From assembly GCA_913051935.1 (NCBI GenBank), contig CAJXCU010000010.1, forward strand, positions 1-49,810: a stretch of DNA of 49,810 nt, read 5' to 3'. The notes beneath the pieces are model-generated. The model saw nothing but the letters and a program-made list of their open reading frames with translations, did not search any database and was not told the origin of the DNA. Each line of letters starts with the position of its first letter. The stretch's first letter is position 1. Shown one piece after another: positions 31,661 through 36,607 of the stretch. Both the position numbers and the translations under genes were made by a program. This DNA is from an uncultured Flavobacteriales bacterium. Lineage in GTDB: Bacteria > Bacteroidota > Bacteroidia > Flavobacteriales_D > Crocinitomicaceae.

Positions 31661-32323
31661 TTATGAGTGGAGGCCAAATGTTTTTAAATAAAGTGGTTTA
31701 CAATTAGCGAGATGATCAAAGTTTTGATTTAAATATCGCATTAGTGCGAGCCCAACTTGACCCTTAGCACTGATTTTTAGAAAAGGATCAAATTCAGCAT
31801 TTCTATTTTTCCAAAGCTTGTGAATCTTTGGCGCACCATCCCCGAAATAGATGAAAGGCTCTTGATCGACAAAAGTATCTTCCTCAATCACTAAAGATTC
31901 TAGGTCATGAAGCACTGAGCCATCTGCTTTGATCGTTTTGGTATAGACTTCCATTCTTCGTGCATCAAGCATTCCACAGATAATACGGCCTGGGTGTTTA
32001 AGTTTGCCTTGTGCCAAAAGGCTGTCCAAAGTTGGAATACAAATGATCGGAATCTGTAAACCCATACACAATCCTTTTGCTGTAGATAGTCCTATTCTCA
32101 ACCCCGTATATGAACCAGGTCCGATTGAAACGGAAATTGCATCTAATTCTGTTGCCAACAGCTTTGCTTCTTTCAGTACGTCAATAATAAATAATGTCAA
32201 TGATTCTCCATGAATGTAAGCATCAGTCTCTTTCTCAACCGAGGCTAGTAAATCCTCCCCTTTGGACACAGCCACTGAACATATCTTTGTCGCGGTCTCA
32301 ATATGTAAAATACGGGGCTGCAT
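31661..32323 (-). CDS. tsaB: tRNA threonylcarbamoyladenosine biosynthesis protein TsaB
   Basis: A 220-aa ASKHA-fold protein needed with TsaC, TsaD and TsaE for the t6A37 modification of ANN-decoding tRNAs. The N-terminal RILHIETATKICSVAV and the central SIGPGSYTGLRIGLSTAKGL are typical. It is shorter than TsaD and lacks its metal-binding His pair, as expected. The start overlaps the response-regulator stop as TAATG, so its translation is coupled to that gene. Confidence 0.93.
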   Translation of the reverse strand: MQPRILHIETATKICSVAVSKGEDLLASVEKETDAYIHGESLTLFIIDVLKEAKLLATELDAISVSIGPGSYTGLRIGLSTAKGLCMGLQIPIICIPTLDSLLAQGKLKHPGRIICGMLDARRMEVYTKTIKADGSVLHDLESLVIEEDTFVDQEPFIYFGDGAPKIHKLWKNRNAEFDPFLKISAKGQVGLALMRYLNQNFDHLANCKPLYLKTFGLHS

Positions 32324-33009
32324 TACTCAGGAATCTCAAACTTAAAACCAACACCATGCAAATTTGATATTACGATTCTCGGGTCTTCTGCAAAATATTT
32401 TCTAAGCTTTGTGATGAATACGTCAAGACTTCTTCCAACAAAATAGTCGTCTTGCCCCCAAACTCCCTTTAAAATAATTTCTCGAGAAATGACTTGATTT
32501 TTATACTTATAGAGGAAACGTAAAATCTGAGCCTCCTTTTTAGTTAAGGTTTTTTCCTTACCCGAAATGCTTAAAATTTGATTCTCTTTATCGTAGCTAT
32601 ACAAACCAATGTTATATACTTTTTCATCTTCTGTTTTAGCTACTTGCACCCTTCTAAGAAGTGCCTTCACCCTAAGTTGAAATTCCTGTATGCTAAACGG
32701 TTTTGTTAGGTAATCATCACCTCCTGCCTCAAAACCAGTAATTTTGTCCTCTGTCATTGACTTTGCCGTGAGAAATAGAATAGGAACTTGAGCATTCACT
32801 TTTCTGATATCCTTTGCCAAAGAAAAACCGTCAAGTACCGGCAGCATGACATCTAAAATACATAAATCAAATGCGCTCTCATTGAATTTAACCAATCCTT
32901 CAGAACCATCCTCAGCACAAGTTACATCATAATCTAAAGACTTTAAATGATCTGAAATCACAAGGCCTAAATTCACATCGTCTTCTACAAGTAAAATCCT
33001 AGTTTTCAT
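32323..33009 (-). CDS. OmpR/PhoB-family response regulator (RprY-like)
   Basis: A 228-aa regulator. The receiver domain (1-115) has VEDD near the start, the phosphorylation Asp in DLCILDVMLP, and the Lys in DDYLTKPF. The C-terminal winged helix contains LTKKEAQILRFLYKYKNQVI and GRSLDVFITKLRKYFAEDPR. No kinase is adjacent; the sensor kinase at 14511-15845 is a candidate partner. A terminator-like hairpin ends 15 nt before its ATG, so expression may be attenuated or the hairpin ends a separate small RNA. It runs into tsaB. Confidence 0.92.
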   Translation of the reverse strand: MKTRILLVEDDVNLGLVISDHLKSLDYDVTCAEDGSEGLVKFNESAFDLCILDVMLPVLDGFSLAKDIRKVNAQVPILFLTAKSMTEDKITGFEAGGDDYLTKPFSIQEFQLRVKALLRRVQVAKTEDEKVYNIGLYSYDKENQILSISGKEKTLTKKEAQILRFLYKYKNQVISREIILKGVWGQDDYFVGRSLDVFITKLRKYFAEDPRIVISNLHGVGFKFEIPE

Positions 33010-33190: not shown

Positions 33191-33859
33191 ATGCAGAAAA
33201 AATCAATTCTTATTGTAGATGACGATGATGACATAAGACATCTTCTTTCCTATAACCTAGAAAAAAATGGTTTTTACGTCGAAACTGCTGGAAACGGGAA
33301 AGAATGTCTTAAAAAACTAAAAAGTAAAAAACCAAATCTCATTTTACTCGATGTAATGATGCCAGAAATGGATGGTCTTCAGGTATGTGAAAAGATCAAG
33401 TCAGAAAAAGAAAATGCAGACATTCTAATTTGCTTTCTCACCGCGAGAGGTGAAGATTACAGTCAAATTGCGGCGCTCGAAGCCGGCGGAGACGATTATG
33501 TAACCAAACCAATAAAACCAAAAGTTCTATTGAGCCGAATAAATGCAATTCTTCGCAGAACAAAGGGTGAAGTTGATTCCACAGCCAACGGAGTCCGAAT
33601 TGACCACGATAAATATGTTGTCCATAAAAATGGTGAAGAGTTACTCTTTCCGAAGAAGGAATTTGAGTTGCTTTCCCTTCTCATGTCTAAACCTGACCAT
33701 GTATTTAGACGCAATGAAATTTTAGACTCCGTATGGGGTTCGGATATCATCGTTGGGGACCGAACCATTGATGTGCATATTAGAAAACTCAGAAGGAAAC
33801 TTGGAGAAGAGCAAATATCAACAGTGAAGGGTATTGGATATAAGTACAATTCCAAATAA
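33191..33859 (+). CDS. PhoB-like OmpR-family response regulator
   Basis: A 222-aa regulator. The receiver domain has IVDDDDDIRH at residues 6-15, the phosphorylation Asp in LILLDVMMPEMDG, and Lys in DDYVTKPIKP. The C-terminal winged helix has LFPKKEFELLSLLMSKPDHV and VGDRTIDVHIRKLRRKLGEE. The sequence resembles the PhoB/RprY group, but its regulon cannot be read. It stops 8 nt before the first hairpin of the small-RNA array, which is transcribed in the opposite direction. No kinase is adjacent. Confidence 0.92.
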   Translation: MQKKSILIVDDDDDIRHLLSYNLEKNGFYVETAGNGKECLKKLKSKKPNLILLDVMMPEMDGLQVCEKIKSEKENADILICFLTARGEDYSQIAALEAGGDDYVTKPIKPKVLLSRINAILRRTKGEVDSTANGVRIDHDKYVVHKNGEELLFPKKEFELLSLLMSKPDHVFRRNEILDSVWGSDIIVGDRTIDVHIRKLRRKLGEEQISTVKGIGYKYNSK

Positions 33860-33862
33860 TAC

Positions 33863-33951
33863 AAAAAACACTACCCGAAAGCAGTGTTTTAAGTGATTTG
33901 AGTTATAGTCTTAGTGTATTTAAGACGCAACTCATTTTCTTAAAGTTGCAT
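33863..33951 (-). ncRNA. Small RNA array, unit 1
   Basis: An 89-nt unit read on the minus strand. It starts ATGCAACTTTAAG, 4 nt after a TAATTTTT box (33956-33963). An internal 7-bp stem TTTAAGA/TCTTAAA forms near the 5' end. It contains the family core ACACTAAGACTATAACTC and ends with the hairpin AACACTGC-TTTCGG-GTAGTGTT and a T-run. One stem pair is G-U on this strand. The 5' AUG frame reads MQL and stops. Confidence 0.7.
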
Positions 33952-33955
33952 CAAT

Positions 33956-33963
33956 AAAAATTA
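33956..33963 (-). promoter_or_regulatory. -7-like box (TAATTTTT) of array unit 1
   Basis: On the minus strand TAATTTTT, then ATTG, then the ATGCAAC that begins unit 1. The spacing of 4 nt is the same as at dnaA. Confidence 0.4.
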
Positions 33964-33989
33964 TTTTTTTTGGTTTTAATTTCTTTTGA

Positions 33990-34193
33990 TTATTTATACT
34001 TGGCTCTCAGTCTAAATAAAAGCCAGAACAAAATAATCATCAGGGGCAATTGACGCAATGCAACTCGTAATATCAATTCAGAAATTTCCATTGAATTTAC
34101 GTCGGTAACCAATCGGTTAGACCTGATTTCTGAGACAATCATGATGATAATAGACCCAACAATCAAATTATTTCTTTCCGTTGAATATTTCAT
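33990..34193 (-). CDS. Possible small membrane protein between array units 1 and 2
   Basis: A 67-aa reading frame from the ATG at 34193. It has a hydrophobic stretch NLIVGSIIIMIVSEI near the N-terminus and another at the C-terminus (LPLMIILFWLLFRLRAKYK) followed by positive charges, so two membrane helices are plausible. No family is recognised. It starts about 13 nt after the T-run of unit 2, with no promoter box of its own, so it might be expressed by read-through of that terminator. It explains the larger gap between units 1 and 2. It may also be a chance frame in AT-rich DNA. Confidence 0.4.
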   Translation of the reverse strand: MKYSTERNNLIVGSIIIMIVSEIRSNRLVTDVNSMEISELILRVALRQLPLMIILFWLLFRLRAKYK

Positions 34194-34205
34194 TCTGGGA
34201 AGGTT

Positions 34206-34297
34206 AAAAAAAAACACTGCCCGAAAGCAGTGTTATTTGTGATTGAGTTAAAAGTTTTAGTGTTATGATGACGCACGGTTATTTAAAAAAGTTGCAT
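34206..34297 (-). ncRNA. Small RNA array, unit 2
   Basis: A 92-nt unit that starts ATGCAACTTTTTTAAATAA, 4 nt after TACTTTTT (34302-34309). It contains GTGCGTCAT and ACTTTTAACTCAATCACA and ends with the perfect hairpin AACACTGC-CTTTCGG... closing with GCAGTGTT, then nine T. It is nearly identical to unit 3 over its first 30 nt. The AUG frame reads MQLF and stops. Confidence 0.72.
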
Positions 34298-34301
34298 CGA
34301 T

Positions 34302-34309
34302 AAAAAGTA
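34302..34309 (-). promoter_or_regulatory. -7-like box (TACTTTTT) of array unit 2
   Basis: TACTTTTT, then ATCG, then ATGCAAC on the minus strand. Same 4-nt geometry as unit 1. Confidence 0.4.
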
Positions 34310-34355
34310 TTTTCGCAGTTGAGCGGTTTTTTATTTTAAAAATTAACTTAACCGC

Positions 34356-34446
34356 AAAAAAAACACTACCCGAAGATAGTGTTTTCTGTGATTGAGTTAA
34401 AAGTCTTAGTGTTAGTATGACGCACGATTATTTAAAAAAGTTGCAT
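34356..34446 (-). ncRNA. Small RNA array, unit 3
   Basis: A 91-nt unit that starts ATGCAACTTTTTTAAATAA, 3 nt after TATTTTTT. The core is GTGCGTCAT, ACACTAAGACTTTTAACTC and AATCACA. Its terminator stem AACACTA/TAGTGTT carries a compensatory T-A pair where unit 2 has G-C, with eight T after it. The AUG frame reads MQLF and stops. Confidence 0.72.
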
Positions 34447-34482
34447 CAAAAAAAATAACCAAACGGATTTAAATATTGATAT

Positions 34483-34572
34483 AAAAAAACACCGCCCAAA
34501 AGCGGTGTTTAATATCATTGAATTAATAGTATTAGCAATTTCAAGACGTGAATTTATTTCTTGAAGTTGCAT
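34483..34572 (-). ncRNA. Small RNA array, unit 4
   Basis: A 90-nt unit that starts ATGCAACTTCAAGAA. The 5' part can form a 12-position stem, GCAACTTCAAGA with TCTTGAAATTGC, with one mismatch. The terminator AACACCGC/GCGGTGTT has a C-G pair where unit 2 has T-A, again compensatory, followed by seven T. No good -7 box is seen. The AUG frame stays open for 46 codons and runs into unit 3. Confidence 0.65.
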
Positions 34573-34639
34573 CTGTCTAGAAGAAAAAACCATCTTCTAA
34601 AAATATCTAGCACAATTTCCAAATAAATGAGAGGTAAAC

Positions 34640-34737
34640 AAAAAAAGCACCGCCATGCAGTGCTTTTTTATAAGAGTAAAATGTTTAAGTTTTCGTAGTC
34701 TGTTATATTGACGGATTGTAATTCATAAAAGTTGCAT
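34640..34737 (-). ncRNA. Small RNA array, unit 5
   Basis: A 98-nt unit that starts ATGCAACTTTTATGAATT. The middle, TACGAAAACTTAAACATTTT, is shared with unit 6 rather than units 1-4. The terminator GCACTGC-ATG-GCGGTGC has a U-G pair on this strand, followed by seven T. The AUG frame reads MQLL and stops. A weak TAAAAATT box lies 5 nt upstream. Confidence 0.65.
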
Positions 34738-34831
34738 TTGTTAATTTTTACCTCGCAGTTTATGATTTGTAATTTAGGAAGACAAGAATTAAAAATTGTA
34801 CAATACGGCAAAAATAGATTTGTCTAAAAAG

Positions 34832-34928
34832 ACAAAAACACCGCTCGTTTGCAGTGTTTTTGTTGATAAGAGTAAAAATGTTTTAAGTTTCGTAATAAGA
34901 GACGTGAGACTTTTTATAAAAGTTGCAC
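34832..34928 (-). ncRNA. Small RNA array, unit 6
   Basis: A 97-nt unit that starts GTGCAACTTTTATAAAA. It shares TACGAAACTTAAAACATTTT with unit 5. The terminator ACACTGC-AAACGA-GCGGTGT has a U-G pair on this strand and a T-run after it. The first codon is GTG and the frame reads V/MQLL then stops. A TATTTTTC box lies 2 nt upstream. It is divergent from the pafA-like gene, whose promoter box is about 36 bp away. Confidence 0.62.
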
Positions 34929-34963
34929 AAGAAAAATAAATCTTTTTAAAAACATATAATGAT

Positions 34964-34971
34964 TAAATTTA
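34964..34971 (+). promoter_or_regulatory. -7-like box (TAAATTTA) 4 nt before ATG of the PafA-like gene
   Basis: TAAATTTA, then TTCC, then ATG at 34976. One mismatch to TAnnTTTG. Consistent with a leaderless transcript divergent from array unit 6. Confidence 0.42.
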
Positions 34972-34975
34972 TTCC

Positions 34976-36607
34976 ATGAAATTTCTTTCTGTTACAGCAG
35001 CCTTGATCATTGTTTTTATCACACATTCCCAAAAGGAATCCCCAAAAATTGTGATTGGTATTGTTGTGGATCAAATGTGCTATGATTATTTGTATCGATT
35101 TGAAAAAAACTATTCCAAGCGTGGCTTTAAAAAACTGATGAATAACGGTAGCCACTTAAAAAACATGCACTTTAATTATATCCCGACTTATACTGGTCCG
35201 GGACATGCATCTATATATACAGGAACAACTCCGAGAAACCATGGAATTATTGCAAATGACTGGTTAGAACGATCATCACTACAAAATGTAAACTGTGTTA
35301 GCGACAATGGTGTAAAGGGAATAGAAAGTAGTGCCCTTTATGGTAAATCCTCTCCGCATAGATTGAATGTACAAACTGTCACAGACCAATTAAAAAAATC
35401 CTACCCAAAATCAAAAGTCATATCGATTTCTATAAAAGACCGTGGAGCGATTCTCCCGGGAGGACACAACAGTGATGGTACTTACTGGTTCGATTACGGT
35501 AAAGGTACATTCATCACAAGCTCATATTTCAAAATTAAGTTACCCAAATGGCTACAAGATTTTAATGAAAATAATAATGCCGCCTCCTATGCTGATGTTT
35601 GGACTCCTTTACTCAAAGAGTCAGCCTATTCAGCGATTGATAACAGCCCTTACGAAAAGATTTTAGCCGGTAAAACGACGCCAACCTTCCCCTATGACAT
35701 TCCAAATTTGTGCAAAACAAGCGCTTCGCTTCAACCCTTTACGATGTCTCCATTTGCAAATACCCTTCTAACAGATTTGGCATTGGATGCAATTGAGCAT
35801 GAACATCTAGGTATAGACGAATCCCCGGACATGCTTTGCATTAGCTATTCATCCCCTGATATCGCAGGCCATGCGTTTGGTCCTGACTCAAAAGAAATTG
35901 AAGACATGTACATCCGACTTGATCTTGAGCTTGCCCGATTTTTAGAATCGCTCGAAAAATTATTCGGGAAAGACGGTTTTATTTTATTTCTCACTGCAGA
36001 CCATGGAGTGGTGCCTGTACCACAAAAGCTGGTTGATGACGGTTTTTCTGGAGGATATGTTTTTGTAGATCAAATGATTCATCAGCTTCGAGCCTCATGT
36101 ATTGAAAAATTTGGTGTGGACTTTATTCTTGGACAGGATAATCTAAATATTTATCTGGATTATAATCTAATGAACAATCATAAAGACTCAATCAACCAGG
36201 ATCAAATTTTATCCTTATTCGAAGAGGAATTACTAAATATTGATGGATTGAAACAAACAGCACGGAGATCGGAATTAATGAAAGGTATTCAGCATAAAGG
36301 CCCCTTAGTTCAGATGCTTTTCGAAGGGTTTGATCCAAAACGAAGCGGTGACCTATTGCTCATTTTAGAGTCTGGTTATTTACCAAAATCAACGCTTTCC
36401 TTGAACCCTCATCAAGGAACCTCGCACGGCTCTGGATATAGCTACGACACACACGTTCCATGCCTTTGGTATGGTGGTGGAATTAGAAAAAATGAAATAC
36501 TTGAGCCGCTAAATATTACAGATATTGGCCCCACATTATTGGAGCTCCTAAATCTTCCAAGGCTAGAATCTATGGTAGGTTCAACAATCAAAGCAATTAA
36601 ACCATAA
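34976..36607 (+). CDS. PafA-like alkaline phosphatase (exported phosphomonoesterase)
   Basis: A 543-aa protein. A signal peptide (about 1-18) precedes VIGIVVDQMCYDYLYRF with metal-binding Asp32. The nucleophile is Thr73 in YTGPGHASIYTG. Further active-site residues are Asn94 (IIANDW) and Lys154/Arg156 (SIKDRGAIL), the KxR and Asn set seen in Chryseobacterium/Elizabethkingia PafA. The second metal site is in SPDIAGHAFGPDS and LTADHGVVP. It releases phosphate from organic monoesters outside the cytoplasm. A nucleotide pyrophosphatase is possible but less likely. The aminotransferase gene follows 9 nt later. Confidence 0.85.
   Translation: MKFLSVTAALIIVFITHSQKESPKIVIGIVVDQMCYDYLYRFEKNYSKRGFKKLMNNGSHLKNMHFNYIPTYTGPGHASIYTGTTPRNHGIIANDWLERSSLQNVNCVSDNGVKGIESSALYGKSSPHRLNVQTVTDQLKKSYPKSKVISISIKDRGAILPGGHNSDGTYWFDYGKGTFITSSYFKIKLPKWLQDFNENNNAASYADVWTPLLKESAYSAIDNSPYEKILAGKTTPTFPYDIPNLCKTSASLQPFTMSPFANTLLTDLALDAIEHEHLGIDESPDMLCISYSSPDIAGHAFGPDSKEIEDMYIRLDLELARFLESLEKLFGKDGFILFLTADHGVVPVPQKLVDDGFSGGYVFVDQMIHQLRASCIEKFGVDFILGQDNLNIYLDYNLMNNHKDSINQDQILSLFEEELLNIDGLKQTARRSELMKGIQHKGPLVQMLFEGFDPKRSGDLLLILESGYLPKSTLSLNPHQGTSHGSGYSYDTHVPCLWYGGGIRKNEILEPLNITDIGPTLLELLNLPRLESMVGSTIKAIKP

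Follow-up and report, generated by a model that had tools for sequence, protein, structure and literature searches.

The window analysed here, the whole stretch of 49,810 nucleotides, carries on its minus strand six small-RNA units in tandem (3' ends from 33863 to 34832), each with its own promoter and its own terminator. Unit 6, of type D, consists of an ECF-type promoter (34901..34927), in which the -35 box TGCAACTT and the -10 box CGTC are 15 nt apart, and a predicted RNA with its terminator (34832..34894), placed by folding and by an alignment of the unit types. The same box pattern gave the promoters, and folding and alignment the predicted RNAs with terminators, of unit 5 (type C; 34710..34736 and 34641..34703), unit 4 (type B; 34545..34571 and 34484..34538), and the three type-A units, unit 3 (34419..34445 and 34357..34413), unit 2 (34270..34296 and 34208..34263), and unit 1 (33924..33950 and 33864..33917), all on the minus strand. 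The units start 346, 149, 126, 158, and 191 nt apart. A preliminary description of this DNA had claimed six minus-strand units with these 3' ends, spaced by 126-191 nt except between units 1 and 2, and both claims hold.

The array lies between a gene for a PafA-like alkaline phosphatase (pafA, 34976..36607, plus strand; 566 bits with a cut-off of 650) and a gene for an OmpR-family response regulator (33191..33859, plus strand; best NCBIfam model PhoB, below cut-off). It reads away from pafA, to which it is divergent, and head-on into the response-regulator gene, so it does not serve as leader to a neighbouring gene on its strand. Unit 6 and pafA are divergent, with no more than about 50 bp separating the promoter of the former from the start of the latter (34901-34976), which means that they necessarily have overlapping control regions. 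On the other side, the regulator gene stands back to back with a second OmpR-family response-regulator gene (32323-33009, minus strand), and this pair beside the array is conserved in the clade. Between units 1 and 2, where a small reading frame had been proposed, there is a hydrophobic frame of 67 aa (33990-34193, minus strand). It had no Pfam or NCBIfam match, no match at E 1e-3 across eight array loci, and a match of only E 0.13 in L132, and it is probably no gene.

The preliminary description had treated the conserved 5' ends and the CGTC motif as parts of RNAs of about 90-98 nt. Our comparisons divide the units differently: the most likely reading of TGCAACTT and CGTC is as the -35 box and the -10 box of a promoter for an ECF sigma factor, each unit is promoter plus RNA, and the predicted RNA measures about 54-65 nt. 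The two boxes are 15 nt apart in 6/6 units. In the 49.8-kb window TGCAAC-N17-CGTC occurs six times, always within the array stretch, where 0.03 occurrences were expected, and none of 100 shuffles reached six. The own genome (G000; 2.36 Mb, 91% complete) has seven exact TGCAACTT-N15-CGTC sites, six of them within the array, compared with 0 for the reversed control. Across the 41 full units aligned, which come from eight genomes, the two boxes line up without gaps; they are exact in 36 and carry one or more changes in five. Pairwise identity between loci was 0.95-1.00 for the boxes versus 0.46-0.63 for the spacer inside the promoter, and a constant box distance around a freely varying spacer is how a two-box promoter behaves. 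AAC at -35 plus CGT at -10 is the signature of an ECF-type promoter. A CGT -10 box is known in Flavobacterium psychrophilum, according to the available part of PMC9723704.

The seventh exact site in the own genome lies upstream of a gene for a secreted-looking protein. The looser pattern TGCAAC-N17-(A/C)GTC was found 15 times there versus four times for the control, namely at the six array units, at one sigma factor gene described below, and at eight other sites. Outside the array and the sigma gene, one further site of this promoter is common to the two closest genomes (G000:C44:15509-15535 and G198:C89:4919-4945); what follows it in G000 is the gene of a long, repetitive protein that looks secreted.

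With the RNA start assumed about 6-7 nt past CGTC, each predicted RNA comprises an unpaired leader of 26-35 nt and an intrinsic terminator. Folding gave the same picture for 6/6 units, an unpaired leader, a terminator hairpin, and then T (z from -3.4 to -4.7), so the earlier claim of individual terminators was borne out; the minimum-energy fold of unit 4 has an additional weak hairpin that is absent from its centroid. In the type-A terminator stem 136/136 cells were paired, 14 of them double-changed, and 0/500 shuffles were as high. Double-changed pairs made up 3/8 of this stem, a value equalled in 74/500 shuffles. Searched with Rfam 15 at gathering scores, the array matched no family, and the sole match in the window was one tRNA elsewhere. 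A relaxed search of the array gave sub-threshold matches only and no credible family. RybB and MicA, which are both among the Rfam families, gave no gathering-score match to the array in the Rfam search.

From unit 1 to unit 6 the types in the window are A, A, A, B, C, and D. Each type is conserved between species, and in the main group their order from the pafA side is D-C-B-A-A(-A); at one locus (L083) type C is missing and the A-like units number four. The 28-nt leader core of type D was identical in 8/8 aligned units, and types A, B, and C are less strict. An AACTC or ACTC core had been described for every unit; unit 4 has AATTC instead. Between loci, pairwise identity was 0.75-0.89 for the RNA bodies and 0.70-0.98 for the terminators. 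For the 40 nt upstream of the units it was 0.31-0.43 in types A-C and 0.68 in type D; the latter is expected because pafA is so close, and is not specific to the RNA. The first impression of an old duplicated and diverged family is right as to the old duplication, but the divergence is not random, as the conservation of four types demonstrates.

A diverged sub-clade (G203, G209, G212, and G224) is alike in place, promoter, and terminators, and its leaders differ. G203 has four near-identical leaders and one odd unit adjoining pafA. The core of the sub-clade, TTTTAACTCTTATC, resembles TTTTACTCTTATC of types C and D. At two loci of the sub-clade (L131:2891-2917 and L133:219-245) the pafA-side unit has a quite different leader, GGGCTCAG ... 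ACCCTTATC, which may form a hairpin of its own.

Within a single genus of Flavobacteriales, 13 genomes have the array in this position, and it is flanked by the same two genes wherever the contig was long enough. A model built from the six units matched 7/200 genomes of the family, including one false positive (G127), a terminator-like stretch directly 3' of a reading frame that the model of 41 units did not match. The latter matched 12/86 genomes of the genus and 12/399 genomes of the order, all within 1/70 genera; the thirteenth array (G209) is partly masked and was found via the PafA locus. All six model matches in the own genome fell at the array locus, so the units are not a dispersed repeat. 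A search of the genome contigs for tandem promoters, covering gaps of 104-134 nt and TGCAACT boxes only, yielded 11 stretches, eight of them in the array clade (seven genomes). The other three (L076, L077, and L080) are unrelated to the array. In G200, a draft genome with masked letters, pafA is a 60-residue piece directly followed by an aminotransferase gene (L132:2087-2266) and the array is intact, a finding that speaks against the array as a mere appendage of pafA. In another draft genome pafA is split into two frames (L083:3673-5296), by a frameshift or an assembly error.

In a PafA tree of 27 genomes, a single branch with support 100/100 separated the 12 genomes with the array from 15 without, and a single gain is the simplest reading. 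Six of the 15 array-free relatives (G121, G040, G084, G127, G145, and G204) have a similar promoter at the same spot, in G204 with a CGTT box. It points away from pafA, and downstream lies another gene whose product has a start like that of a secreted protein. No promoter site with up to 2 mismatches was found at the spot in the other nine. A promoter of this kind may have been the origin of the array. A derivation of the type-D leader from the signal-peptide start of such a gene is borderline, with 6.5% and 7.1% of shuffles as high in two comparisons and 12% and 31% by other measures.

Of the 11 Sigma70_r2 matches in the own genome, one ECF gene encoding 177 aa (G000:C27:12649-13179) has TGCAACTTTTAAGAATAAATATCAGTC 15 nt upstream of its ATG, which is the array promoter with one change. 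The orthologues carry TGCAAC-N17-(A/C)GTC 13-15 nt upstream of the ATG in 18/18 genus members tested (six with the array and 12 without it). At paralogous ECF genes the motif was present at 0/12 loci, with GGCAAC instead in 11/12. This sigma gene therefore appears to control its own expression, and the motif to be particular to it. The array promoters combine an AAC-type -35 box, a CGT-type -10 box, and a fixed distance with a form common to the promoter of an ECF gene. The -10 box of the sigma gene reads AGTC in 14/18 members, including all six array genomes tested, and CGTC in 4/18. One base thus differs between the array promoter and most sigma-gene promoters and the match is imperfect; the A/C difference may set promoter strength.

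The gene downstream of the sigma factor encodes a partner protein in which the type IX secretion domain CHU_C exceeded its Pfam cut-off in 18/18 members; 0/2 paralogue partners tested had this domain. At the paralogous ECF loci (L106-L116, e.g. G000:C39:8506-9021) the partner has about 410-430 aa. The partner of the sigma factor has a hydrophobic stretch near residue 50 and its CHU_C domain is C-terminal, features that make a membrane anti-sigma factor facing the secretion machinery plausible. Of 25 NCBIfam models listed for this sigma factor, the one for the general sigma70-ECF superfamily alone exceeded its cut-off, and for this reason we give the protein no family name. The array seems to be a principal output of a single sigma factor linked to secretion.

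We propose, from the sequence and by analogy, that the array is a battery of sRNAs under one autoregulated ECF sigma factor that act by base pairing in secretion or envelope stress, a reading that we consider somewhat probable. The partner with its hydrophobic stretch and CHU_C domain would probably hold the sigma factor, and a fault in secretion or in the envelope would release it. Freed sigma factor would raise its own gene and the array, and all RNAs would rise together, each of the six RNA genes (four types) having a separate promoter and a separate intrinsic terminator at which its transcription stops. The unpaired, conserved leader would then be the base-pairing seed, and our guess is that the leaders repress a few mRNAs for proteins that are secreted or lie at the surface, in a way similar to RybB and MicA in the sigma E response. 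The boxes, the terminators, the conservation, the promoter form common to sigma gene and array, and the lack of a conserved peptide can be read directly from the sequences; transcription, its start sites, its dependence on the sigma factor, the anti-sigma function, and the signal are inferred, and pairing and the nature of the targets are guesses. Sigma release and induction are proposed from sequence and analogy, target repression by analogy with RybB/MicA and FopS as presented in the available parts of PMC1804206 and PMC11697453. The array itself is real, clade-wide, and ordered, a battery of probable sRNA genes that its sequence ties to one ECF sigma factor.

The preliminary description had likened the array to LhrC and Qrr as regulators with partly redundant targets; the layout supports the comparison, and no target was found that would support the redundancy. 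LhrC is regulated by a two-component system and is partly tandem in layout, and CcsR1-4 of Rhodobacter are tandem sRNA copies under another type of sigma factor. The following comparisons rest on the available parts of the papers cited. LhrC of Listeria resembles the array in its multi-copy homologous sRNAs with single-stranded pairing stretches, and differs in its CU-rich motifs, an additional stem-loop, and the phylum (PMC13350326). RybB and MicA are likewise short sRNAs with terminators under an envelope-stress sigma factor, and in Salmonella they exert feedback on it; they are two unrelated single-copy genes of Proteobacteria with known omp targets, whereas here there is one family in a tandem array (PMC1804206). 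FopS/GibS of Bacteroides thetaiotaomicron are also a paralogous sRNA family of Bacteroidota, with an RRM protein in both cases, but FopS has 14 members with housekeeping-type promoters in place of one array with ECF-type promoters (PMC11697453), and no Rfam or sequence link with the array was found. A further parallel is the SM6 class of ECF promoters, with the sRNA Rfp11, in F. psychrophilum: it has the CGT -10 box, and the SM6 regulon contains an ECF/anti-sigma pair, at least one sRNA, and type IX secretion genes; the sRNA there is single (PMC9723704). FoxJ of Fusobacterium is an sRNA driven by an alternative sigma factor outside the enterics, for which the text at hand describes no array (PMC11005410). 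Among the literature matches listed, whose scope excludes subscription papers and preprints, we found neither this family nor an ECF-driven tandem sRNA array in Bacteroidota; the parts of the array are of known kinds, and their combination is absent from these matches.

Target searches gave null results. Against 678 gene start regions (800 kb of G192) the duplex energies of the leaders were no better than those of shuffled leaders, and types C and D paired rather worse than these. Type B exceeded all 30 shuffles at one threshold in mid-gene control windows and not in start regions. Exact seeds occurred at chance (k = 9, 103 vs 100.7; k = 10, 23 vs 29.4; k = 11, 5 vs 7.4). The complement of a first 12-nt core had 39 matches across 12 genomes (arrays, 25; other places, 14) compared with 61 for the reversed control, and that of a second had 19 in nine genomes (16 in arrays and three elsewhere) compared with 13. 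One of the 14 non-array sites lies 16 to 5 nt upstream of a start codon (L196, in G200) and was seen in G200 only. Two pairs of close sisters each have one non-array site of the first complement in common, and for both complements no site outside the array was conserved beyond sister genomes. Conserved mRNA complementarity was thus seen neither with the 678 genes of one relative nor with the two 12-nt cores, a result compatible with a small number of targets whose seeds are short or interrupted, or with an effect on a protein.

Action on a protein would make the RNAs decoys: the repeated leader core (TTTTAACTC / TTTTACTCTTATC) would titrate an RNA-binding protein, for instance the single RRM protein of the own genome, and translation or decay would change indirectly through the titrated protein. 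The failure to find a base-pairing target favours this, as do the short core common to the types and the diverged sub-clade and, in the part of PMC11697453 available, the binding of a multi-copy sRNA family by an RRM protein in Bacteroides. That same family, however, is described there as base pairing at start codons, and four types conserved beyond their common core are more easily understood as several pairing specificities than as a single site for a protein. We therefore hold decoys to be unlikely. More doubtful still is a reading in which sigma control holds but the RNAs themselves do nothing, the array serving as a stock of spare ECF promoters for titration of the sigma factor, silenced by the terminators. 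Such a role would explain why six of the seven exact promoter sites of the genome are within the array, but not why the RNA bodies are conserved (0.75-0.89) when the spacer (0.46-0.63) and the 40 nt upstream of types A-C (0.31-0.43) are not, nor why the four types keep their order.

That the units encode small peptides is very improbable. Comparison of the sequences revealed no conserved peptide, and in the 45 nt examined 16/18 type-A and 6/7 type-C units were without a start codon. Type B has an ATG at a constant place in 7/8 units, but its frames vary in end and length. Type D can be read in frame from ATG (3/8) or TTG (2/8) as MKLKTFLLLS, which is signal-peptide-like; its start codon is not conserved, yet the 28-nt core is invariant and without silent changes. 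Own promoters and intrinsic terminators without a conserved reading frame are what sRNA genes look like. A non-transcribed repeat element or a chance assembly of terminators, which the repetitive layout and the contigs of G136 and G198 that break inside the array might suggest, is hardly credible given a single locus per genome, constant neighbours, a fixed register of promoter and terminator, and conservation throughout the clade.

Our preferred reading remains that of base-pairing sRNAs under the ECF sigma factor. Beyond it, we offer as a tentative and rather doubtful idea that in this clade an ECF sigma factor, held by a partner with a type IX domain, acts mainly via a non-coding output: the promoter at this spot, which drives a secreted-protein gene in array-free relatives, would have multiplied into an ordered battery of four RNA types, whose origin may lie in the beginning of a gene of that kind. 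To our knowledge, few environmental Bacteroidota sRNAs have a known regulator. Here sequence alone links an entire array of sRNAs with a single sigma factor and with the partner that carries the secretion domain, giving a circuit that can be tested in a phylum whose translation for the most part begins without Shine-Dalgarno pairing, and the array-free relatives, some with a similar promoter before another gene, offer a view of the birth of a multi-gene sRNA family.
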